Part shown: positions 1,662-64,000 of the stretch, one piece after another
How the letters are laid out: each line of letters starts with the position of its first letter
How positions within the stretch are numbered: position 1 is the first letter of the stretch
NCBI RefSeq assembly: GCF_001403635.1
Contig: NZ_LN879468.1
Span: 1,697,501 to 1,761,500, forward strand
Source of the DNA: Clostridium massiliamazoniense
GTDB taxonomy: Bacteria > Bacillota > Clostridia > Clostridiales > Clostridiaceae
Direction: 5' to 3'
Length of the DNA: 64,000 nt
The notes under the pieces: generated by a model
Database searches by the model: none
The model's input: the letters and a program-made list of their open reading frames with translations, nothing else
What the model was told of the DNA's origin: nothing
Translations under genes and position numbers: made by a program

Positions 1662-2137
1662 TTTATAATATCCTCCAAAAGTTTAAAAATCTTATCTATT
1701 ATTAAAATTTTATTACCTCAATTTATCTGATAGTATACTTCAAATCACTCCTATTTTATTGTTCAAATTGGCATTATATCTAATAAAATATTCTATTAAT
1801 AAATACTAACCACCTTTTCATTAATTATAACACCTTATAGAAATTAAATATACAAAAGTCCTATATGATACTAATATTACCTTGTATTTATTCCAATAAT
1901 TTATATATAATTAGTTATATTTAATTTATAGCTAATCAATTCAATATTTTAATTATTCTAAAGGTGAAAAAAAATTGACAAGCCTATAAATTAATTAGAC
2001 TAAAGTTCAAATATTTTTGAATTAAGTCTTTTTATCTTCTTATTATATATTTTCACATTAGGAAGGGAGGTACTATTTCTCTAAATATGTTATTACCTAT
2101 TAAAATAATTTTATATTTAGGAAATAGTGATATATCT
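1662..2137. other. Intergenic region between divergent murD and hydE, with a leader hairpin
   Basis: No gene is visible. A TTGACA at 1975-1980 is a possible -35 for hydE, but the matching -10 (around 1998, GACTAA) is poor. An imperfect hairpin at about 1997-2029 followed by a T-run (2029-2033) looks like an intrinsic terminator reading toward hydE. A strong Shine-Dalgarno-like GGGAGG at about 2063-2068 lies about 70 nt before the preferred hydE start, too far to serve it directly. The murD Shine-Dalgarno is at about 1670. Confidence 0.4.
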
Positions 2138-3205
2138 ATGAATAAACTTATCGAAAAGTTAAAAAAAGAACACCTTCTCACTCGAGAAGAATTAATCGAA
2201 CTATTAAAAGATGATTCTATAAATGAGGAACTTTATAAAGCTGCTGATGAAGTAAGAGATAAAACTCTAGGAAATGAAGTTCATTTAAGAGGGCTTATAG
2301 AATTTACTAATATCTGCAAAAGAAATTGTATGTATTGTGGACTTAGAAGAGATAATAAAATAATTAAAAGATATAGACTTACAGAAGAAGAAATCTTAGA
2401 TTTTGCTGAGAAAGCTGTTAGTTATGGTTACAGAACCTTAGTTTTACAAGGTGGAGAAGATCCTTACTTTACAGTGGAAAGATTAGTCCCATTAATAAAA
2501 AAAATTAAAGCTTTAGGAGTTGCTATAACACTTAGTATAGGTGAAAGAAGTCTTGAAGAATATAAAGCATTTAAAGAAGCAGGTGCTGATAGATTCTTAC
2601 TTAGAATAGAAACTACCGATAAGGAACTTTATGAAAAATTAGATCCAGGAATGAGTCATGAAAACAGAAAGCAATGCTTAAGAGACCTTAGAACTGCTGG
2701 TTATGAGGTAGGAAGTGGTGCTCTTGTTGGGCTACCAGGTCAAACTATTGAATCCCTTGCTGATGACTTATTATATTTTAAGGAATTAGATGCTGATATG
2801 CTTGGTATAGGGCCTTTTATACCAAATGAAGAAACTCCTTTAAAAGATTGTAAAACTGGAGATTTTCATCTTGCTTTAAAAATGATGGCCTTAATAAGAC
2901 TACTATTACCTGATATAAATATTCCTGCTACTACTGCAATGGAAACCCTAGATAAAAACGGAAGAACAATCGCTCTTCAATGTGGAGCTAATGTTGTTAT
3001 GCCTAATGTTACTGAAGGTGAGTATAGAGCCTTATATAAATTATACCCAGGAAAAATATGCATAGGTGATACTCCTGCTCATTGTAGAGGATGTGTTACA
3101 GGAAAAATTAGAGCAATCAATAGAGTTGTATCAGATGGTTATGGATTTAGAGACAACGGTTCTGGTCCTAAAAAAAGAGATGAAAATGGAAAAAGAGTAG
3201 AATAA
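2138..3205 (+). CDS. hydE: [FeFe]-hydrogenase maturation radical SAM enzyme HydE
   Basis: HydE is a radical-SAM enzyme that helps build the diiron subcluster of [FeFe]-hydrogenase together with HydF and HydG, which are not in this window. The radical-SAM CX3CX2C motif (CKRNCMYC) falls at cysteines 60, 64 and 67 from this start. The C-terminal KICIGDTPAHCRGC has the same C-x7-C-x2-C spacing as the accessory cluster site I recall from Thermotoga HydE. The TIM-barrel segments VLQGGEDPY, GALVGLPGQ and IGPFIPNEETPL are all present. I chose MNKLIEKLKK because family members begin here. The frame stays open to an ATG at 2087, which would add 17 residues, and neither start has an ideally spaced Shine-Dalgarno. 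The product is about 355 residues, the usual size. Confidence 0.93.
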   Translation: MNKLIEKLKKEHLLTREELIELLKDDSINEELYKAADEVRDKTLGNEVHLRGLIEFTNICKRNCMYCGLRRDNKIIKRYRLTEEEILDFAEKAVSYGYRTLVLQGGEDPYFTVERLVPLIKKIKALGVAITLSIGERSLEEYKAFKEAGADRFLLRIETTDKELYEKLDPGMSHENRKQCLRDLRTAGYEVGSGALVGLPGQTIESLADDLLYFKELDADMLGIGPFIPNEETPLKDCKTGDFHLALKMMALIRLLLPDINIPATTAMETLDKNGRTIALQCGANVVMPNVTEGEYRALYKLYPGKICIGDTPAHCRGCVTGKIRAINRVVSDGYGFRDNGSGPKKRDENGKRVE

Positions 3206-3225: not shown

Positions 3226-3259
3226 AAGAGGATGTATCAAATTACAGATACATCCTCTT
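3226..3259. terminator. Terminator hairpin between convergent hydE and nadE
   Basis: A perfect 13-bp stem (3226-3238 with 3247-3259, 8-nt loop) lies 21 nt after the hydE stop. It has A-rich flanks on the left and a T/C-rich tail on the right. It can end hydE, and readthrough from the NAD operon on the other strand. Confidence 0.8.
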
Positions 3260-3322
3260 CTGCCTTTTATATAGCTATATAGCTTCATCATTTGTGACCA
3301 CTCACCTACGTAAAGAAGCTCT
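3226..3322 (-). repeat. Family-I dispersed repeat, copy A (half element plus terminator hairpin)
   Basis: Read on the minus strand it contains TTTACGTAGGTGAGTGGTCA, then TATATAGCTA, then a GAGGATGTATC hairpin. The same order of blocks occurs at about 8060-8220 and 32430-32604. The left arm of the full-length copy (at 32.4 kb) is missing here. The hairpin end faces the hydE stop. Confidence 0.8.
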
Positions 3323-3347
3323 TTATCACTTTAATAAACTATCTTCT

Positions 3348-4133
3348 TTATTTTAAATTCCAAATAGGAGGCATTTCTGATTTGTGTTTATTTAATTCTT
3401 CTTTTCTTTTAATCTTCTCAAAAGCTTCCTTTGATATGTTTTTTCCACCTGTTAATATATAGTCATCTATTTCTCTATAAGTTACACCCATTTCGTCCTC
3501 ATCTGTTTGACCAGCCCAAAGTCCTGCTGATGGAGCTTTTTCTATTATTGATGTTGGAACTCCTAAGTATCTAGCTAATGTCCTTACCTCGGTTTTAGTA
3601 AGCATTCCTATTGGGTTGAAGTCATGGCCACTATCTCCCCACTTTGTTGAATATCCCACAGTTCTTTCAGATAAGTTTCCTGTTCCTACAACCATATACC
3701 CTAAACTTTGCCCTAAAGCATAAAGTGTTGTCATTCTTACTCTTGGTCTAATATTACTAAGTGCTAAACTACCTAGTTCTATTTCTACCCCTTTTAAAGT
3801 TTTGCATGATTTTTTTAGGGAATCTTCTAGAGCGTCTACAGTTGTTGTTATATCAACTGTTGTATAATCTAAATCAAATTTCTCTATTAATTCTAAAGCG
3901 TCCTTACTATCTTTAGTTCTCTCCATACTATCTCCATATGGCATCATTACTAATAAAGTTTCAACTCCTGCTTTAGCACAAAGTGCTGCTACTAAGGAAC
4001 AATCTATTCCACCACTCATTCCAAAAATAACACCCTTTGCATTAGCTTCTTTTACTTTCTCTTCTATAAATTTTGAGATTTTAATAGCATATTCTTCTGC
4101 ATTTTCTTCTGTAATGAAAAAATTTTTATTCAT
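3348..4133 (-). CDS. nadE: NH3-dependent NAD synthetase
   Basis: It amidates nicotinate adenine dinucleotide to NAD with ATP and ammonia, the last step of the pathway encoded by this operon. The 261-residue protein is one N-type ATP-pyrophosphatase domain and lacks the glutaminase domain of longer NadE forms, so free ammonia is the expected donor. The PP-loop is SGGIDC (residues 40-45); most relatives have Ser where this has Cys. VVGTGNLSERTVGYSTKWGD and LAVPT-like KAPSAGLW are typical of the family. An in-frame ATG at 4148 is rejected because the GGAGGG Shine-Dalgarno lies inside its first codons. The ATG at 4133 sits 7 nt beyond that site and overlaps the end of nadD by 8 nt, pointing to translational coupling. 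Confidence 0.95.
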   Translation of the reverse strand: MNKNFFITEENAEEYAIKISKFIEEKVKEANAKGVIFGMSGGIDCSLVAALCAKAGVETLLVMMPYGDSMERTKDSKDALELIEKFDLDYTTVDITTTVDALEDSLKKSCKTLKGVEIELGSLALSNIRPRVRMTTLYALGQSLGYMVVGTGNLSERTVGYSTKWGDSGHDFNPIGMLTKTEVRTLARYLGVPTSIIEKAPSAGLWAGQTDEDEMGVTYREIDDYILTGGKNISKEAFEKIKRKEELNKHKSEMPPIWNLK

Positions 4134-7958: not shown

Positions 7959-8059
7959 CATTTTCGTTGTAATTTTTTCTCATTTTTTAACATTCACCTT
8001 ATTAGTTGTAAGCTTTACTATTTTTAATTTTCTCTTTATCTCTAAAACTTAATTCATAA

Positions 8060-8220
8060 AAAAACTTCCACTATTTGAACAAAGTGAGTTTGGAAATTTT
8101 AGAAACTGTTGTAGAAAAAATATTAGAGTTTCTTTACGTAGGTGAGTGGTCACAAATGGTGAAGCTATATAGCTAGATAAAAGGAAAAGAGGATGTATCT
8201 GAATTTGATACATCCTCTTT
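8060..8220 (+). repeat. Family-I dispersed repeat, copy B
   Basis: It shares long blocks with the copy at 32.4-32.6 kb, including GAACAAAGTGAGTTTGGAAA, TTTACGTAGGTGAGTGGTCA and the GAGGATGTATC hairpin. The left terminal arm is absent. The hairpin end faces the 3' end of glyS. Confidence 0.85.
8186..8220. terminator. Terminator hairpin downstream of glyS
   Basis: A 14-bp perfect stem (8186-8199 with 8207-8220, 7-nt loop) starts 30 nt after the glyS stop on the minus strand. It is the end of repeat copy B and can also stop rightward transcription. Confidence 0.75.
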
Positions 8221-8249: not shown

Positions 8250-9650
8250 TTAAAATTCTAAGCTCTTAGCTATGATGTCTTTAACATCTTCAATTTTAAC
8301 TCTTTCTTGTTCCATAGAATCTCTATGTCTGATAGTTACACATCCATCTGTTTCAGTTTCAAAATCAACTGTTATACAGAATGGTGTTCCTATTTCATCT
8401 TGTCTTCTATATCTCTTACCTATACTTCCAGTTTCATCATATTCAATGTTAAAGTGTTTTGAAAGCTCTGAATAAACTTCATCAGCTTTTTCTGATAACT
8501 TCTTAGAAAGTGGTAATACAGCTGCTTTATATGGTGCTAAAGCTGGATGTAAGTGCATTACTGTTCTTATATCCTCTTTTCCATTACTTTCTAAAACTTC
8601 TTCATCATAAGCTTCAACTAAGAATGCTAAAGCAACCCTGTCTGCTCCTAATGATGGTTCTATAACATATGGGATATATTTTTCGTTAGTTGTTGGGTCT
8701 AAGTAACTTAAATCTTGTCCTGAGTGTTCAGCATGTTTGTTTAAGTCATAGTCAGTTCTATCTGCTATTCCCCAAAGCTCACCCCATCCAAATGGGAATA
8801 AATATTCTATATCTGAAGTTGCATTTGAGTAGAAGCTTAATTCTTCTTCCCCATGGTCTCTCATTCTGATATTTTCTTTGTTCATTCCTAAATTTAATAG
8901 GAAGTTCCAACAATTATCTTTCCAGTATTTGAACCATTCTAAATCTGTTCCTGGCTTACAGAAGAATTCTAATTCCATTTGTTCAAACTCTCTAGTTCTG
9001 AAAGTAAAGTTACCTGGAGTTATTTCATTTCTGAATGATTTACCTATTTGAGCTATACCAAATGGTACTTTCTTTCTTGAAGTTCTTTGAACATTTTTAA
9101 AGTTAACAAATATACCTTGAGCTGTTTCTGGTCTTAAGTAAACTTCATTTTTGCTATCTTCAGTTATACCTTGGAAAGTTTTAAACATTAAGTTGAATTT
9201 TCTTATTTCTGTGTAGTTAAGCTTTCCGCATTTTGGACATACGATATTATTTTTTGTGATGTAGTCCATTAGTTCTTCATTGCTCCAACCATCAGCAGTT
9301 GCAACTTCTGCTCCATTAGCAGTCATATGATCTTCAACTAATTTATCAGCTCTAAATCTAGCTTTACATTCTTTACAGTCCATTAATGGGTCTGAGAATC
9401 CACCAACGTGTCCTGATGCTACCCAAACTTCTCTATTCATTAATATAGCAGCATCTAATCCAACGTTATATTTGCTTTCTTGAACAAATTTTTTCCACCA
9501 AGCTTTTTTTACGTTATTTTTAAATTCAACACCTAATGGGCCGTAATCCCAAGAGTTTGCTAATCCTCCATATATATCTGATCCAGGGAATATAAATCCT
9601 CTATTCTTACATAAAGCAACTATTTTTTCCATAGTCTTTTCTACTGACAT
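8250..9650 (-). CDS. glyS: Glycyl-tRNA synthetase (single-chain dimeric type)
   Basis: It charges tRNA-Gly. The 466-residue protein is the class II alpha2-type enzyme, not the two-subunit glyQ/glyS bacterial form. Class II motifs are visible: [27 protein letters not shown] and [16 protein letters not shown]. The N-terminus ([16 protein letters not shown]) and a Cys pair (CPKCGKLN) are normal for the family. The C-terminal anticodon-binding domain begins near [18 protein letters not shown] at 9650 follows GGAGG. Expression is probably controlled by the T-box leader upstream and it ends at the family-I hairpin. Confidence 0.96.
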
Positions 9651-9712: not shown

Positions 9713-9925
9713 ATAAAAAAAAGCCTTCATACTTTAAAGGGACGAAATTCTATTCCGCGGTTCCACCCTTCTTAGCAAAAGCTCAACTTTGAATAATGTA
9801 CTCAAAAGCTCCATTCCTATTATCCTTATAGTAATTTGCACCAACCATTACCTCTCTAAAAATAAGACTTAATAGTACTCCTCTTTCTCACTGTACCTAT
9901 TTACTTTTATATTTTGTATATTCTC
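9713..9925 (-). ncRNA. T-box riboswitch leader of glyS
   Basis: On the minus strand the leader contains the T-box sequence AAGGGTGGAACCGCGG (around 9755-9770), then TTCGTCCCTTT and a run of T at about 9715-9722. These are the antiterminator/terminator parts of a T-box. The upstream part has the AGTGAGAAAGAGGAG and GGTAATGG-type Stem I elements. Uncharged tRNA-Gly should pair with it and allow readthrough into glyS. I did not fix the specifier codon by hand. Confidence 0.85.
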
Positions 9926-10039: not shown

Positions 10040-10107
10040 AACTGCTAAAATAACTATATAGTTGAGAGGTCACTAAAAATCTACCTATATAGCTATTTAA
10101 AGCAGTT
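10040..10107. repeat. Short hairpin derivative of repeat family I (copy E)
   Basis: A long imperfect inverted repeat with AACTGCT/AGCAGTT ends and inner CTATATAG arms encloses GAGAGGTCACTAAAAATCTA. The GGTCAC core and CTATATAGCTA end match the family-I element, so it looks like an internally deleted copy. It may also help end transcription after the metallo-hydrolase gene at 10173. Confidence 0.6.
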
Positions 10108-10172: not shown

Positions 10173-10895
10173 TTATTTTTGTAATTGATCTACATTGATT
10201 GTTCCGTTATACTCTCCACCATGGTAGCAAAGAACTCTATTTATATCTAAATCTCTTAATTTTTCTAATGATTGTTTTGCTTGCTCTATATCATAATTAT
10301 AAAAATCATTAATTCTTTCTAATTTACCATTTTCTAAAGCTATAGCATCACTTGTTAATAATGTTTTTTGGTCTCTTACATAAATACATATGTGACCTAA
10401 AGTATGTCCTGGCATATCTAAAGTTTCTACTTCTTCAAATATTGGTAATCTATCTCCAGCCTTGAAAGTTTTATCTACTTTAATAAATAAATTTGGGAAT
10501 GCTCCTTTTAAGAAATCAAGGAATCCTCTAGCACCTTCATCTAGTTTTTCTCTGTTTGGTTCTAACATTTGTATTTTTAGTGGAGTTTTTTCTCCTGAAA
10601 TAAATTCAGCTTCTACATCAGTTGAATATATTGTTACATTATCCCCTAAAAGTTCTTTAAATTGTTTTACAGTTCCTACGTGATCTATATCATGATGAGT
10701 TATAACTATACCTTTTAATTTTTCTATACTTACATGCTTCTCTATTTCAGCTTTTAATATTTCAAATTGACCTGGATAAGCTGTATCTACTAAAACAGCT
10801 TTTTCTTCATCAAAAATAAGAACTGGATAAACAGTCATTTCTCTTCCATCATTCATAGATGATGCTTTTAATATTTCTACATTTAATTTACTCAT
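10173..10895 (-). CDS. Metallo-beta-lactamase-fold hydrolase
   Basis: A 240-residue cytoplasmic protein of the MBL superfamily. Visible metal-site motifs are VITHHDIDHVG (the HxHxDH motif in the variant form H67-x-D69-x-D71-H72), MPGHTLGHICIY and DAIAL with a metal-bridging Asp, and LCYHGGEYNG near the end. The second His of the canonical motif is Asp, a variation I have seen in other Gram-positive MBL hydrolases. The substrate cannot be read from the sequence; hydroxyacylglutathione-hydrolase-like or lactonase-like roles are possible. It stands alone between the glyS T-box promoter and a repeat-rich gap. ATG follows AAGGAG. Confidence 0.85.
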   Translation of the reverse strand: MSKLNVEILKASSMNDGREMTVYPVLIFDEEKAVLVDTAYPGQFEILKAEIEKHVSIEKLKGIVITHHDIDHVGTVKQFKELLGDNVTIYSTDVEAEFISGEKTPLKIQMLEPNREKLDEGARGFLDFLKGAFPNLFIKVDKTFKAGDRLPIFEEVETLDMPGHTLGHICIYVRDQKTLLTSDAIALENGKLERINDFYNYDIEQAKQSLEKLRDLDINRVLCYHGGEYNGTINVDQLQK

Positions 10896-24850: not shown

Positions 24851-24939
24851 TGGTGCCGAAGACCGGAATCGAACCGGTACGATGTGTTAGCATCGCAGGA
24901 TTTTAAGTCCTGTGCGTCTGCCAGTTCCGCCACTTCGGC
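24851..24939 (-). tRNA. tRNA-Leu (anticodon TAA), ninth of operon
   Basis: An 89-nt minus-strand gene starts GCCGAAG and ends CTTCGGCACCA (CCA encoded), with a long variable arm and the anticodon region GACTTAAAATC. The sequence is identical to the copies at 25036, 25304 and 25571. Confidence 0.95.
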
Positions 24940-24954
24940 ATATTATAAAATTTT

Positions 24955-25030
24955 TGGTTGCGGGGACAGGACTCGAACCTGTGACCTTTGGGTTATGAGC
25001 CCAACGAGCTGCCAACTGCTCCACCCCGCG
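24955..25030 (-). tRNA. Initiator tRNA-fMet (CAT), eighth of operon
   Basis: The 76-nt gene begins CGCGGGG and ends CCCCGCAACCA. The unpaired C1-A72 and the three G-C pairs of the anticodon stem (GGGCTCATAACCC) mark the initiator type. Confidence 0.95.
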
Positions 25031-25035
25031 TTATT

Positions 25036-25124
25036 TGGTGCCGAAGACCGGAATCGAACCGGTACGATGTGTTAGCATCGCAGGATTTTAAGTCCTGTGC
25101 GTCTGCCAGTTCCGCCACTTCGGC
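25036..25124 (-). tRNA. tRNA-Leu (TAA), seventh of operon
   Basis: Same sequence as the other three tRNA-Leu copies in this operon. It starts the last, incomplete repeat unit, in which elongator Met is missing. Confidence 0.95.
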
Positions 25125-25142
25125 TTAATATTATTTTTTAAA

Positions 25143-25219
25143 TGGTAGCGGGAACAGGATTTGAACCTGCGACCCTTCGGGTATGAACCGAATGCTCTAG
25201 CCAGCTGAGCTATCCCGCC
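25143..25219 (-). tRNA. Elongator tRNA-Met (CAT), sixth of operon
   Basis: The 77-nt gene starts GGCGGGATAGCTCAG and ends TCCCGCTACCA, with anticodon loop GTTCATACC. Its body resembles elongator Met rather than the lysidine-modified tRNA-Ile. Confidence 0.93.
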
Positions 25220-25223
25220 ACAT

Positions 25224-25299
25224 TGGTTGCGGGGACAGGACTCGAACCTGTGACCTTTGGGTTATGAGCCCAACGAGCTGCCAACTGCTCCACCCCGCG
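25224..25299 (-). tRNA. Initiator tRNA-fMet (CAT), fifth of operon
   Basis: Identical to the copy at 24955-25030; unpaired C1-A72 and GGGCTCATAACCC anticodon arm. Confidence 0.95.
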
Positions 25300-25303
25300 T
25301 TAT

Positions 25304-25392
25304 TGGTGCCGAAGACCGGAATCGAACCGGTACGATGTGTTAGCATCGCAGGATTTTAAGTCCTGTGCGTCTGCCAGTTCCGCCACTTCGGC
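25304..25392 (-). tRNA. tRNA-Leu (TAA), fourth of operon
   Basis: Identical to the other tRNA-Leu copies. Its start is 267 bp from the next copy to the right and 268 bp from the next to the left. Confidence 0.95.
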
Positions 25393-25409
25393 TTAATATT
25401 ATTTTTTAA

Positions 25410-25486
25410 TGGTAGCGGGAACAGGATTTGAACCTGCGACCCTTCGGGTATGAACCGAATGCTCTAGCCAGCTGAGCTATCCCGCC
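25410..25486 (-). tRNA. Elongator tRNA-Met (CAT), third of operon
   Basis: Identical to the copy at 25143-25219, including most of the flanking spacer. Confidence 0.93.
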
Positions 25487-25490
25487 ACAT

Positions 25491-25566
25491 TGGTTGCGGG
25501 GACAGGACTCGAACCTGTGACCTTTGGGTTATGAGCCCAACGAGCTGCCAACTGCTCCACCCCGCG
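25491..25566 (-). tRNA. Initiator tRNA-fMet (CAT), second of operon
   Basis: Identical to the other two fMet copies. Only 4 bp separate it from each neighbour, so processing must cut every short spacer. Confidence 0.95.
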
Positions 25567-25570
25567 TTAT

Positions 25571-25659
25571 TGGTGCCGAAGACCGGAATCGAACCGGTAC
25601 GATGTGTTAGCATCGCAGGATTTTAAGTCCTGTGCGTCTGCCAGTTCCGCCACTTCGGC
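25571..25659 (-). tRNA. tRNA-Leu (TAA), first of operon
   Basis: First gene after the promoter at 25692-25720. Sequence as the other tRNA-Leu copies, CCA encoded. Confidence 0.95.
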
Positions 25660-32254: not shown

Positions 32255-32283
32255 TAGTATTTTTAATATTTGAAATTTTATAC
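32255..32283 (-). promoter_or_regulatory. Candidate sigma-G-type promoter of spoVT
   Basis: On the minus strand GTATA (32283-32279) and AATACTA (32261-32255) are 17 bp apart, resembling the forespore -35 GnATR and -10 CATnnTA elements. B. subtilis spoVT is sigma-G dependent. Confidence 0.4.
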
Positions 32284-32367
32284 ACATTGGTTATATTTTT
32301 GTCTAGTTGTTTTTTCATCTCCATTAATAACATATTTAAATCTATGTATTTTTTTTATCTGCTGAGA

Positions 32368-32604
32368 TAGCTATATAGGTACAAAATGCTGTGACCATTG
32401 AACTAGTACTAGAAGCTCTTTATTTTTGAACAATAGTTTCGTAAAAAAATTTCCATTGTTTGAACAAAGTGAGTTTGGAAATTTTAGAAACTATTGTAGA
32501 AAAAATATTAGAGCTTCTTTACGTAAGTGAGTGGTCACAAATTATGAACCTATATAGCTAGATAAAAAGCAAAGAGGATGTATCTGTAATTTGATACATC
32601 CTCT
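32368..32604 (+). repeat. Full-length family-I MITE-like element (copies F+C)
   Basis: Perfect 12-bp terminal inverted repeats TAGCTATATAGG (32368-32379) and CCTATATAGCTA (32549-32560) bound a ~193-bp unit. Its two arms stay complementary for about 70 nt each, including GTGACCA/TGGTCAC, AGAAGCTCT/AGAGCTTCT and ACAATAGTTTC/GAAACTATTGT. A nested inverted repeat fills the centre. The terminator-like hairpin 32573-32604 follows at 12 bp, as in copies A and B. No protein is encoded. Confidence 0.8.
32573..32604. terminator. Terminator hairpin downstream of the PrsA-like gene
   Basis: Perfect 12-bp stem AGAGGATGTATC/GATACATCCTCT with an 8-nt loop identical to that of copy A, 12 nt beyond the stop of the foldase gene. 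Confidence 0.75.
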
Positions 32605-32616
32605 CTATTTTTACTC

Positions 32617-33885
32617 CTATTTAGCAGGAGTTGTTGTATTCTTATCGTTTGATTGGTTTTGTTGAGTAGTTGACTGCTCAGTTGTTTGGCTTTGTGTTCC
32701 ACTTTGTTGAGTAGTTGACTGCTCAGTTGTTGTTCCTGATTGACTTTCACTTGTTGAAGTTTTGTCTAATATAGGATAACCTAATCTATCTGTATAAGTC
32801 TTCATATTAGCTTCTTTTTCCCATTTAGCAAGGGCTTGTGATATAGCTTGATTGTTCTCTTGAGTTTGAACAGCTTTAAGCGCTTGATCTTTAACTTTAT
32901 CAAATGGTAATACTTTTGGCGCTGTGTAGTTATTAATAAATATTACATTGTAAGCTCCTGTGCTTCCTACAGAAGAATCTATTACTCCTGATATTTCACC
33001 ATTCTTAGTTAAACCATTTAAAGCAGTCATAAAGTTCTTATTAAAGTTGCTATAGTTGTATGGTATTTTACCATTATCAGCTGAATTACCTGTTGTTAAT
33101 CTTCCACCAGTTTGTTTTGTTGAATCTATATTGTTAGCAGAAGCTATTTTTTGGAATATAGCTAATTGTTGAGCAACAGTTAAGTTCTTATCTTTAATTT
33201 CACTTTCATATTGAGCTCTTAATTTTTCTGCTTCTTCTTTAGTGCTAACAACTATTTGATATACATCAGCACTTGCTGGTTCAGTAAATTGACTATCTTT
33301 ATTTTCATTGTAGTATGTTTGAGCATCATTTTCTGTTACTTTAACATCTTTAGTTATATAGTTAGAAAGCTCTTGAACTTTAACTTGTTGAGTTATCATA
33401 TTATTAAATTCTGCTTGAGTCATTCCTGTCATTTGAAGATACATTGCTTCATCAACATCTATACCTTGACTTTGCTTAATTTCTGCAAAGAATTTTTGTT
33501 TTTCAGCTGCAACTAATTTATCCATATCAGCTTGAGTTGGTATTAACTTAAGATCTTGAACTTGTTTATCTACAATAGCTTGAACTTCTAAGCTTTCAAC
33601 AACTTTTCCTCTTTGTTGTATTATATATTGCTTAGCTTGAGAGTTTTCCATTAAGTTACCTTGAATTTCTTGTGATAATGTTTGATAAACATATTTCATT
33701 TGTGGATTTTCTTCTACTTGATTTACAGTTATTTTTTGACCGTAGACTTCACCAACTACAGTATTTTTTACAGCATTTGGCGTCTTTTCAATCATTCCAG
33801 AGTTAATAGCTATTGCAACGATTATTATTACTATTACAATTATTGCAATAAGCCCCCCTATGATTTTTTTTGAATTTTTCATCAT
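32617..33885 (-). CDS. Membrane-anchored PpiC/SurA-type peptidyl-prolyl isomerase (PrsA-like)
   Basis: It probably folds proteins just outside the membrane. The 422-residue product has one N-terminal membrane anchor (about 8-29). There is no lipobox Cys, so unlike B. subtilis PrsA it is not a lipoprotein. A helical SurA-N-like region follows, and a parvulin-type domain (about 205-345: VYQIVVSTKEEAEKL, GGRLTTGN, LTKNGEISGVIDS). The C-terminus (about 380-422) is a Ser/Thr/Gln-rich tail with TTEQSTTQQ repeated, encoded by a direct DNA repeat. Two ATGs in tandem are possible starts. In B. subtilis this spot between mfd and spoVT has no prsA. Confidence 0.85.
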   Translation of the reverse strand: MMKNSKKIIGGLIAIIVIVIIIVAIAINSGMIEKTPNAVKNTVVGEVYGQKITVNQVEENPQMKYVYQTLSQEIQGNLMENSQAKQYIIQQRGKVVESLEVQAIVDKQVQDLKLIPTQADMDKLVAAEKQKFFAEIKQSQGIDVDEAMYLQMTGMTQAEFNNMITQQVKVQELSNYITKDVKVTENDAQTYYNENKDSQFTEPASADVYQIVVSTKEEAEKLRAQYESEIKDKNLTVAQQLAIFQKIASANNIDSTKQTGGRLTTGNSADNGKIPYNYSNFNKNFMTALNGLTKNGEISGVIDSSVGSTGAYNVIFINNYTAPKVLPFDKVKDQALKAVQTQENNQAISQALAKWEKEANMKTYTDRLGYPILDKTSTSESQSGTTTEQSTTQQSGTQSQTTEQSTTQQNQSNDKNTTTPAK

Positions 33886-53114: not shown

Positions 53115-53392
53115 TTAAATTATTTATATACTATGACGAGAAGAGTAAGTTTTGGATTTTACTTTTAGCGAGTGAGTTATGGTGAAAGTCTCACAGTAAT
53201 GCCTTAACCCAAGAACATCTCTGAGTATCTAACTGAAAAACTTTTAGTTTAGTAGGCTTAGACGGAGCCAAACCGTTATTCTTTGGACAGCATTATTTAG
53301 TGTTGATTATGAGTTGGCTACATAATCTTTGTAGCAATTTGGGTGGTACCGCGGATATACTTTCGTCCCATTAGTGGATGAGGGTTTTTTTT
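53115..53392 (+). ncRNA. T-box riboswitch leader of asnS
   Basis: The leader has the T-box core GGGTGGTACCGCGG (about 53341-53354), the following TTTCGTCCC, and a terminator hairpin (about 53367-53384) with eight T. Upstream GTGAGTTATGGTGAAAGTCTCAC and AGAACATCTCTGAGTATC are Stem I/II-type elements. AAC triplets suited to an Asn specifier occur in Stem I (for example in TATCTAACTG), but I did not fold it. tRNA-Asn is encoded at 11.7 kb. Confidence 0.9.
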
Positions 53393-62680: not shown

Positions 62681-63318
62681 ACTTTCTTCCTCCTGTTTCC
62701 TTTTTTTAATTTATCTTATAAGTTACTCTATTTAAACTACATTTTTACAATAATTAAATTTTAATTTTTAAAGCTAATTTTTATTAATTTATTATTTTTA
62801 GCTTTTGTTCCTTGCTACAATCTTAGTATATCATCAAATTAATTATTTGTGGGTTAATGTTGTGTAAAGAATATCATCTTTCATTTACACTTAATTCATT
62901 AATCTTATTATTTGTAAATCAATTCACATTTTAGTTAATATTTTATACATATTAAATACATTTAATAGTAAAATTTAATTTTTAAATATGGATTTTTCTT
63001 TAAATTAATTCCATTTTATTGAATATAATGTATAAAAAATAGCATTTTTATAAATTCATAACTCTATATATTCATATTTTCTTTTATCCTAATATGAATA
63101 ATTCAATTTTAAAACTTGCAATTTTCATATTTTTCTTCTTTTTAAAACTAACAACTATAATAAAAAAATATTAAAACTTCACTTCTAATCAAAAATTAAA
63201 TAGATAAAGTTTCCTAATAAAAGAATCTGTATGAAATCAGTACTTTAATTTATCTAATAGCTAAATAAAAAGTAAAAAGGACATATCTGTAATTCGATAC
63301 ATCCTCTTACTTATTAAA
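62681..63318. other. AT-rich intergenic region upstream of the small-gene trio
   Basis: No gene is seen in about 640 bp. An AGCT...AGCT-type weak hairpin lies near 62770-62800, and a degenerate family-I repeat end is at 63250-63308. The promoter of the trio is expected here but I could not fix it. Confidence 0.4.
63250..63308 (+). repeat. Degenerate family-I repeat end (copy D) with hairpin
   Basis: TCTAATAGCTAAATAAAAAG and AGGACATATC-TGTAATTC-GATACATCCT correspond to the right end of copies B and C with several substitutions. The hairpin (about 63276-63308) starts 10 nt after the aconitase stop and has the same loop start TGTAATT. Confidence 0.55.
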
Positions 63319-64000
63319 CTACATACCTTTATTATAATTTAATGTTCCTCCAGCTTTAATTATTTCAATATCTTTTTCTGATAATTCTACTTTAACTTTA
63401 AATGTATAGTTTTTACTTATATTTTTTGCTGTTAAAATTCCCTTATCTATCTCTTCATATATATTATCAAAAGTTAAACTGTCCATAGGTTCTATTTTTT
63501 CGTAGTCCTTTGGATTCTCAAAGGTCATTGGTACTATACCACTATTAATTAAATTTGCCTTATGAATTCTAGCAAAAGATTTAACTAAAACTGCTCTTAT
63601 TCCTAAATAAAGTGGTGCTAGAGCTGCATGTTCTCTACTTGAACCTTGACCGTAATTCTCTCCTCCTACAATAAATCCACCGCCATTATCTATGGCTCTC
63701 TTAGGAAACTCCTCATCTATTGTACTAAAACAATAATTAGCTAAATAAGGTATATTACTTCTATAAGGCAATAACTTAGCATTAGATGGCATTATATGGT
63801 CTGTAGTAATATTATCTTCAGCTTTTAAAACCACTTTACCCTCTAAAGATTTTCCTAAAGGCACATTAAGAGGAAATGGTTTAATATTTGGTCCTCTTAC
63901 AATTTCAACATCTTCATTAATACTAGCTGGTTTTATTATCATACTATCGTCAATAATAAATTTATCTACATGTATATCTGAAAAATCAACTTCATAATCT
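63319..64000 (-). CDS. Aconitate hydratase, C-terminal part (5' end outside window)
   Basis: The frame runs from the right edge of the window to the stop at 63319, about 227 residues. It is the C-terminal swivel domain of an aconitase: NITTDHIMPSNAKLLPYR, GGGFIVGGENYGQGSSREHA, LYLGIRAVLVKSFARIHKAN and LINSGIVPMTF. The substrate-binding SSREH motif is intact. The frame is open upstream of the Met at 63942 (HVDKFIIDDSM), so that Met is internal. The short-loop sequence looks like the ~640-residue aconitase type of anaerobes rather than the 900-residue AcnA, but the Fe-S part is not visible. Isopropylmalate isomerase is less likely given the length of this domain. Confidence 0.9.
   Translation of the reverse strand, partial: DYEVDFSDIHVDKFIIDDSMIIKPASINEDVEIVRGPNIKPFPLNVPLGKSLEGKVVLKAEDNITTDHIMPSNAKLLPYRSNIPYLANYCFSTIDEEFPKRAIDNGGGFIVGGENYGQGSSREHAALAPLYLGIRAVLVKSFARIHKANLINSGIVPMTFENPKDYEKIEPMDSLTFDNIYEEIDKGILTAKNISKNYTFKVKVELSEKDIEIIKAGGTLNYNKGM

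Follow-up and report, generated by a model that had tools for sequence, protein, structure and literature searches.

The question raised by this locus is what kind of entity a short non-coding palindrome between two clostridial genes represents, a mobile element or a structured RNA. The palindrome lies in a window (the whole stretch of DNA analysed, 64 kb in length with a GC content of 28.6%) whose minus strand carries spoVT, a peptidylprolyl-isomerase-like gene, mfd and pth, and it is flanked by the stop of the isomerase-like gene (32617) and the start of spoVT (32207). From this gene content the window is taken for part of a Clostridium chromosome. The isomerase-like gene (32617-33885) scores 192 bits, below the NCBIfam cut-off of 303, and is presumably of the PrsA type; a 29-nt perfect direct repeat (32658-32731) is found close to its 3' end. 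An earlier note on this DNA described a unit of about 193 bp with perfect 12-bp inverted ends, and regarded it as either a non-autonomous mobile element or a mobile structured RNA. The intact element consists of the following features.

32368..32560, plus strand: intact hairpin element, single form, 193 bp, paired end to end, with perfect ends and a model match
32368..32379, plus strand: left end, 12 bp, TAGCTATATAGG
32549..32560, minus strand: right end, 12 bp, exact inverse of the left end

The perfect inverted ends are present as described (32368-32379 and 32549-32560), and folding together with a frame check confirms a non-coding unit of about 193 bp that forms a hairpin over its full length and is overlapped by no frame of at least 100 aa. 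The end-to-end fold of positions 32360-32566 reaches -75.1 kcal/mol on the plus strand (z -9.5) and -70.4 kcal/mol on the minus strand (z -12.3), with 0 of 200 shuffles as good on either strand. The complementary arms of about 70 nt that had been proposed exist as blocks of 20, 30 and 23 nt, although these are only 90, 70 and 83% complementary, respectively. Similarly, the original span of the element (32368..32604) has to be shortened, since the palindrome occupies 32368-32560 and the remainder (32561-32604) lies outside it, in a separate terminator-like hairpin. By eye, TA is seen at both outer ends of the window element and in two other genome groups, which is compatible with a target duplication. 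A match resembling a promoter (32270-32297) does not exceed the chance expectation (2 found versus 2.1 expected).

Relatives of the element and terminator hairpins occur together elsewhere in the window.

32570..32607, strand not assigned: terminator-like hairpin, 9 nt from the stop of gene 32617-33885, with a terminator match on both strands
8032..8175, plus strand: second copy, without left end and with a decayed left arm, 88% identical over 145 nt in the right three quarters
8189..8217, strand not assigned: terminator hairpin adjoining the 8.1-kb copy, before the stop of gene 8250-9650, with the shared terminator arm
3272..3354, minus strand: fragment behind the hydE-like gene 2087-3205, 80% over 83 nt
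3228..3257, strand not assigned: terminator hairpin adjoining the 3.2-kb fragment, with the shared terminator arm
10063..10095, plus strand: short fragment of the right end, with a T-box leader on one side and the stop of gene 10173-10895 on the other, 82% over 33 nt
63256..63306, plus strand: terminator hairpin and short end remnant (the remnant by eye), without the hairpin module, before the stop of gene 63319-63942, with the shared arm

Of the relatives previously listed at 3.2, 8.1, 10.0 and 63.3 kb, the first three match the palindrome by blastn, whereas the item at 63.3 kb has no blastn match to it at E up to 1 and is related through the terminator arm and, by eye, a short end remnant. 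The covariance model R1, described below, matches the 8.1-kb copy at 8032-8128 with 51.4 bits, compared with 130.5 bits in the intact copy. The match lengths and model scores indicate that the window contains an intact and a decayed copy as well as three fragments. The terminator arm of 32570-32607 recurs at 3.2, 8.1 and 63.3 kb, and matches to it with at most one mismatch are more numerous in the window than expected (7 versus 0.65), as are those to the 12-bp end (10 versus 2.26, with two places counted on both strands and three lying away from any relative). At all five places, as judged by eye, the 3' end of the module or remnant faces the stop codon of a gene on the opposite strand. The window also contains T-box leaders at 53124-53373 and 9735-9900, the latter upstream of a glycine-tRNA ligase gene and with the fragment at 10063-10095 just past it, and a run of nine consecutive tRNA genes (24851-25659) in near-regular Leu(taa)-Met(cat)-Met(cat) order that is apparently a recent amplification.

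As judged from the aligned sequences, the conserved part of the element is the inner 140 nt and not the ends. In the window copy this part is organised as follows.

32395..32533, plus strand: conserved structured module, model R1 (140 positions), covariance model match of 130.5 bits
32440..32447, plus strand: internal loop, 5' strand, CGTTAAGAA type, here CGTAAAAA (14-sequence alignment)
32457..32476, plus strand: conserved apical motif TGTTTGAACAAAGTGAGTTT (14-sequence alignment)
32483..32487, plus strand: internal loop, 3' strand, TTTAG, with TTTA invariant in 14 sequences

The first alignment, made before any model, comprised 13 of 30 fetched loci and the window copy. It contains 23 invariant columns, which include the loop motifs of the core (CGTTAAGAA opposite TTTAG, and the apical TGTTTGAgC..GcGAGTTT), and RNAalifold predicts 39 pairs from it, of which 32 have changed on both sides; 13 raw copies fold alike. 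When 46 matches (45 of them distinct) were fitted to the R1 model, 35 of the 39 pairs showed double changes and 95.3% of cells were paired. The 468 double-change cells in these 46 matches compare with 121.5 after shuffling (0 of 500 shuffles as high) and at most 118 after sliding, and covariation of the kind required of a structured RNA is present beyond both controls. The narrow form of the apical motif is found in 40 of 46 and 36 of 50 matches, several of the misses being near variants, and stem identity is 0.74-0.78 inside three genomes versus 0.56 across the 46-row set. Some modules are enlarged: two (L174:191-396 and L315:4197-4396) carry about 60 additional nt in the apical domain, and seven modules in L260, L262, L263, L264 and L269 have, by eye, an additional hairpin segment in the right arm that is similar in all of them and looks like the insertion of another small palindrome.

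The two strands of the module do not fold equally well. In free folding without the model, the modelled strand was the better one in 43 of 46 copies (G-U 237 versus 115). For the related genomes G094-G096, in which 2 of 72 matches at contig starts were left out, it was the better one in 50 of 70 copies, with G-U about equal (267 versus 247). Four partly overlapping alignments give ratios of G-U to A-C among stem pairs of 24:5, 112:40, 83:14 and 77:17, with one near-fixed G-U column supplying 9 of the 24 and 39 of the 83 G-U. The better folding of the modelled strand and the excess of G-U suggest that the molecule that folds is RNA or a single strand of DNA, the former presuming that the module is transcribed. 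With its covariation and one-strand folding bias, the module fits the option of a mobile structured RNA raised in the earlier note at least as well as that of a non-autonomous mobile element.

The element is widespread and, in some genomes, abundant. Among 206 genomes (the family of Clostridium sp. Ade.TY (G003), taken as Clostridiaceae), blastn yields matches in 34 at E<=0.001 with three candidates scored per genome, the strongest of which cover the interior only. The R1 model detects the module in 85 of the 206 at E<=0.01 (15 scored per genome), and in 30 of 391 genomes of the class at E<=1e-4 (8 scored), 23 of which do not belong to the 206. In one carrier, Clostridium zeae (G001), all 15 candidates scored are modules. 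Four strong carriers, chosen for closer counting with 150 candidates scored per genome, contain at least 64, at least 76, at least 118 and at least 38 copies. The expectation of many more copies is supported by these at least 38-118 modules per carrier genome, and that of a non-autonomous, mobile, multi-copy element is likewise supported, in both cases by other species only. The sequences proposed as search handles did not serve: a pattern around the GTGAGTGGTCAC block has 0 exact matches in the genome collection (a 15-base version matched 33 viral contigs), and a 10-base version of the end, sought in the flanks of 168 copies (a few being one copy under two locus names), occurs in the intact window copy and in one flank of L134 but in no other; a similar stretch is present in L344, a further locus of the genome that contains L134. 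The R1 model matches three viral contigs that carry the apical motif, with 40-66 bits (L341:47-122, L342:1133-1253 and L340:1418-1539), representing a possible route between hosts. The plasmid collection contains no match at E<=1e-5 to the window element or to a double element, and Rfam 15 recognises nothing at the window element or at the modules of seven relative loci; its one sub-threshold match, to a microRNA-precursor model (25.8 versus 195 bits), was rejected. The titles, abstracts and passages surveyed in the open-access literature on clostridial palindromic or mobile-hairpin repeats, structured RNAs and the motif strings yielded no description of the family.

Copies are located next to gene ends. 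With frames defined by length, without a gene finder, the midpoint of a copy falls inside a frame of at least 100 aa in 0 of 120 copies. The 84 gaps that hold copies comprise 38 convergent, 45 same-way and 1 divergent, compared with 75 convergent, 325 same-way and 86 divergent among all 486 gaps of the same loci (copy-holding ones included). Within same-way gaps, 30 of 42 cases have the copy closer to the upstream stop; of the single copies, 20 of 26 are antisense. Frames whose stop faces the element end within 110 nt of the model edge in 63 of 89 cases on the 3' side and 10 of 41 on the 5' side, while start-facing frames lie this close in 3 of 25 and 1 of 22, respectively; the location counts exclude 2 of 50 matches (one of 29.5 bits and one that is the reverse of another). 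The polarity in terms of gene orientation is weak (56:13 versus 18:13 in G094-G096, p 0.025; 33:12 versus 23:9 in the others, p 1.0), and outside G094-G096 the polarity of the 3' side is visible in distance and not in gene orientation.

Comparison of related genomes demonstrates that the occupancy of particular sites differs. The 72 model matches in G094-G096 lie in 20 loci that, like many other loci, were picked for copy density, and neighbours less than 1 kb apart are arranged minus then plus in 22 of 22 cases. Gaps within these close pairs measure 30-399 nt in 20 of the 22, the other two (808 and 937 nt) enclosing frames of 100 and 116 aa. Such double elements recur as units: a 20-kb query with one of them has at least 16 matches in G094/G096, each covering 690 or more of the 755 bases with 69-76% identity, and G175 contains two 1.66-kb double elements that are 95% identical at different sites. 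One element of G095 (L259:12261-13015) is absent from the same place in G094 and G096 (L316, L317), where a shared 36-nt hairpin with a perfect 16-bp stem is found, and a hairpin resembling it also occurs mid-way in double elements. At a second site G095 has a single element versus an ordinary-looking terminator in G096, and three more sites hold different members (in opposite orientation, single versus double, or shortened). Elsewhere G096 retains only an end-like stretch. In contrast, both copies of L263 as well as the pair L262:5741-6336 have counterparts at the same place in G095. No clean empty site was found among the sites compared in G094-G096, the absent sites carrying other terminator-like hairpins. 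For the window copy, the PrsA-like protein is only 39-41% identical to its three best counterparts in the 206 genomes, so no close relative is available that could display an empty site; in three other relatives, too distant to be informative, spoVT has no module within 8 kb.

The outer arms are common to copies in most genomes compared and copy-specific as a rule only in G139. Four copies in G139 have arms of 81-103 nt beyond the model that are 94-99% paired, and each of the four pairs with its own other arm (scores of 114-191, compared with at most 37 for the arms of other copies). Across six other genomes, the own arms were best in 0 of 33, 0 of 21, 1 of 16, 2 of 5, 1 of 5 and 0 of 4 copies. 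Whole-genome searches with two G139 copies (40 candidates scored each) matched other copies mainly in the core, with one match extending 32 nt into the arm and the remainder short and weak. The arms of L345 and L346 extend 28-55 nt into the ends of flanking frames. The two convergent frames of L346 share their last 11 residues (KSKSETNEKTA), indicating that the end of one gene was duplicated, in inverted form, from that of the other. Among 151 rows (some copies being included under two locus names), 34 have paired arms that overlap an adjacent frame by at least 9 nt, in some cases elsewhere than at its 3' end. On this evidence, the arms in G139 look like the product of fold-back copying of the flank. 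Another copy (L125, the same as that of L171) has arms of about 190 nt that are 84% paired and enter 114 nt into the 3' end of the neighbouring frame.

Genes that might move the element were sought beside the copies. The 25 largest frame clusters in loci with copies look, by eye, like ordinary genes, and no transposase was recognised among them. The double elements of G174 and G175 contain no frame longer than 56 aa between their hairpins, one kind of double element carries a 52-aa acetyltransferase-like remnant (14.8 bits versus a Pfam cut-off of 24.3), and eight loci of G095 and G096 have stop-to-stop frames of up to 79 aa that overlap the hairpins. A long Y1 transposase appeared promising as the mover in a chosen subset of genomes, yet neither the flanks nor all 206 genomes supported it. 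Several long Y1 transposases per genome occur in G190, G174 and others, and the one tested from G174 has a sub-threshold DnaA-like match at its C-terminus.

On balance, it is probable that the palindrome belongs to a non-autonomous mobile element of clostridia with a lasting hairpin core, a trans-acting mover and arms that can be built by fold-back. The element would have been amplified separately in each clostridial lineage, and its core would consist of fixed loop motifs on stems that are free in sequence but obliged to pair. A trans-acting factor, putatively an enzyme, would read the folded core and bring about movement, and the element would settle, or be retained, between a stop codon and the next gene, with the 3' end of the core often abutting the stop of an opposite-strand gene. 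DNA synthesis could then fold back at the hairpin and copy the end of the flanking gene, generating outer stems on the spot; each such copy would acquire its own paired arms, as in G139, and later moves would carry these arms along, making them family-wide in other genomes. A bolder version, which is conceivable and put forward only tentatively, is that of a clostridia-wide class of elements that are read as a folded strand rather than through the sequence of their ends, build their own outer stems shell by shell by inverted copying of the adjacent gene end, its coding sequence included, land at gene 3' ends and maybe take over termination, served by an enzyme of an undescribed kind.

Other explanations account for parts of these observations. 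Elements of the IS630/Tc1 type produce a TA target duplication, and the palindrome could be an ordinary miniature inverted-repeat transposable element (MITE), i.e., an internally deleted relic of an insertion sequence with such a duplication, in which the hairpin is a by-product of long inverted repeats. This is rather unlikely: although the perfect ends, the lack of coding sequence, the TA seen by eye at the outer ends in the window and two other genome groups, and a size within the 70-300 bp quoted in PMC3733652 are all consistent with it, a by-product hairpin would preserve neither the pairing of unrelated stems nor the fixed loops from genome to genome, the ends are not common to the copies, and the arms in G139 are copy-specific. 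The position against stop codons, the near-absence between divergent genes and the better folding of one strand would also suit a structured RNA or 3' untranslated element, present in many copies, with a role for the host (e.g., at mRNA ends, in termination or as an RNase III target) that was spread by recombination and not transposed. Such a role is unlikely as the explanation, however, given that the same sites in related species are empty of the element or hold different members, that 1.66-kb units 95% identical to each other occur at two sites, and that only 85 of 206 genomes contain the module.

The origin of the arms allows a further reading, in which the core inserts into the tips of existing palindromes such as terminator hairpins and the arms are the target rather than the product. 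Double elements do seem, by eye, to occupy places at which a relative carries a hairpin of terminator type, and there are element flanks similar to its arms; nevertheless, arms of 80-100 nt that are 94-99% paired and extend into coding sequence exceed terminators and themselves require an inverted duplication, which makes tip insertion improbable. Finally, a large counterpart of the REP/RAYT system, for which the mover would be a long Y1 transposase carrying a DnaA-like helix-turn-helix at its C-terminus, has very little probability. Y1 frames of at least 185 aa were found, by eye, in 17 of 22 chosen carriers versus 6 of 22 chosen non-carriers (Fisher 0.002), but 20 loci (3.4-9.0 kb) around Y1 genes contain 0 modules at E<=0.05. 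Over all 206 genomes, modules are present in 35 of 66 with the protein versus 50 of 140 without it (p 0.02, uncorrected for kinship), and the module-rich G094 and G096 are not among the 66.

Most descriptions of small bacterial palindromic repeats deal with one species at a time, while a family that is united by its structure throughout many clostridial genomes lends itself to comparison in the way an RNA does, and reveals the features that a mover or binder has to recognise. If the flanking gene is truly the template of the arms, new C-terminal codons are being written onto neighbouring genes, and the arms constitute a natural record of fold-back DNA synthesis.

Several known systems resemble the element in part. 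Group IIC introns insert behind terminators in one orientation; unlike these, the element has no Rfam intron match in seven relative loci and no frame longer than 56 aa between the hairpins of double elements (G174, G175). REP sequences are 20-40 bp long with a GTAG or CGTC foot; PMC3733652 outlines them as extragenic palindromes that occur as singles and paired units and notes G-T pairing in them. The likeness to REP/BIME, as far as that outline goes, lies in the extragenic palindrome, its single and paired units and the G-T pairing; the 193-bp palindrome ends in TAGCTATATAGG and has neither the 20-40 bp size nor a GTAG-type foot, and, in contrast to REP/RAYT, the surroundings of 20 Y1 genes (in 18 loci long or mixed, in two of about 190-200 aa) are free of modules. 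Clop-1 (93 nt, C. perfringens) and Clot-1 (74 nt, C. tetani), listed in Tables 3 and 4 of PMC2267715, are likewise repeated clostridial stem-loop families, and are by their description shorter than this module; part of the present family may already have been seen in that work. The bacterial MITEs bcr1, ERIC, NEMIS, EFAR and RUP form hairpins and are described in PMC3733652 for single species or groups. As portrayed there, they are similarly non-coding, repeated and gene-adjacent with strong structures, and differ from the present element, which has one core with persistent loops across many genomes of a class and copy-specific outer arms in one clostridial genome. For MITEs as a whole, the account in PMC3733652 gives 70-300 bp with terminal inverted repeats of 15-30 bp, and the window element is non-coding and 193 bp long, with end arms of 20 nt that are 90% complementary and perfect over the first 12, and with dispersed copies in the window and in four other genomes. 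On these points the element works like a MITE and may belong to this class, as a small dispersed palindromic repeat.
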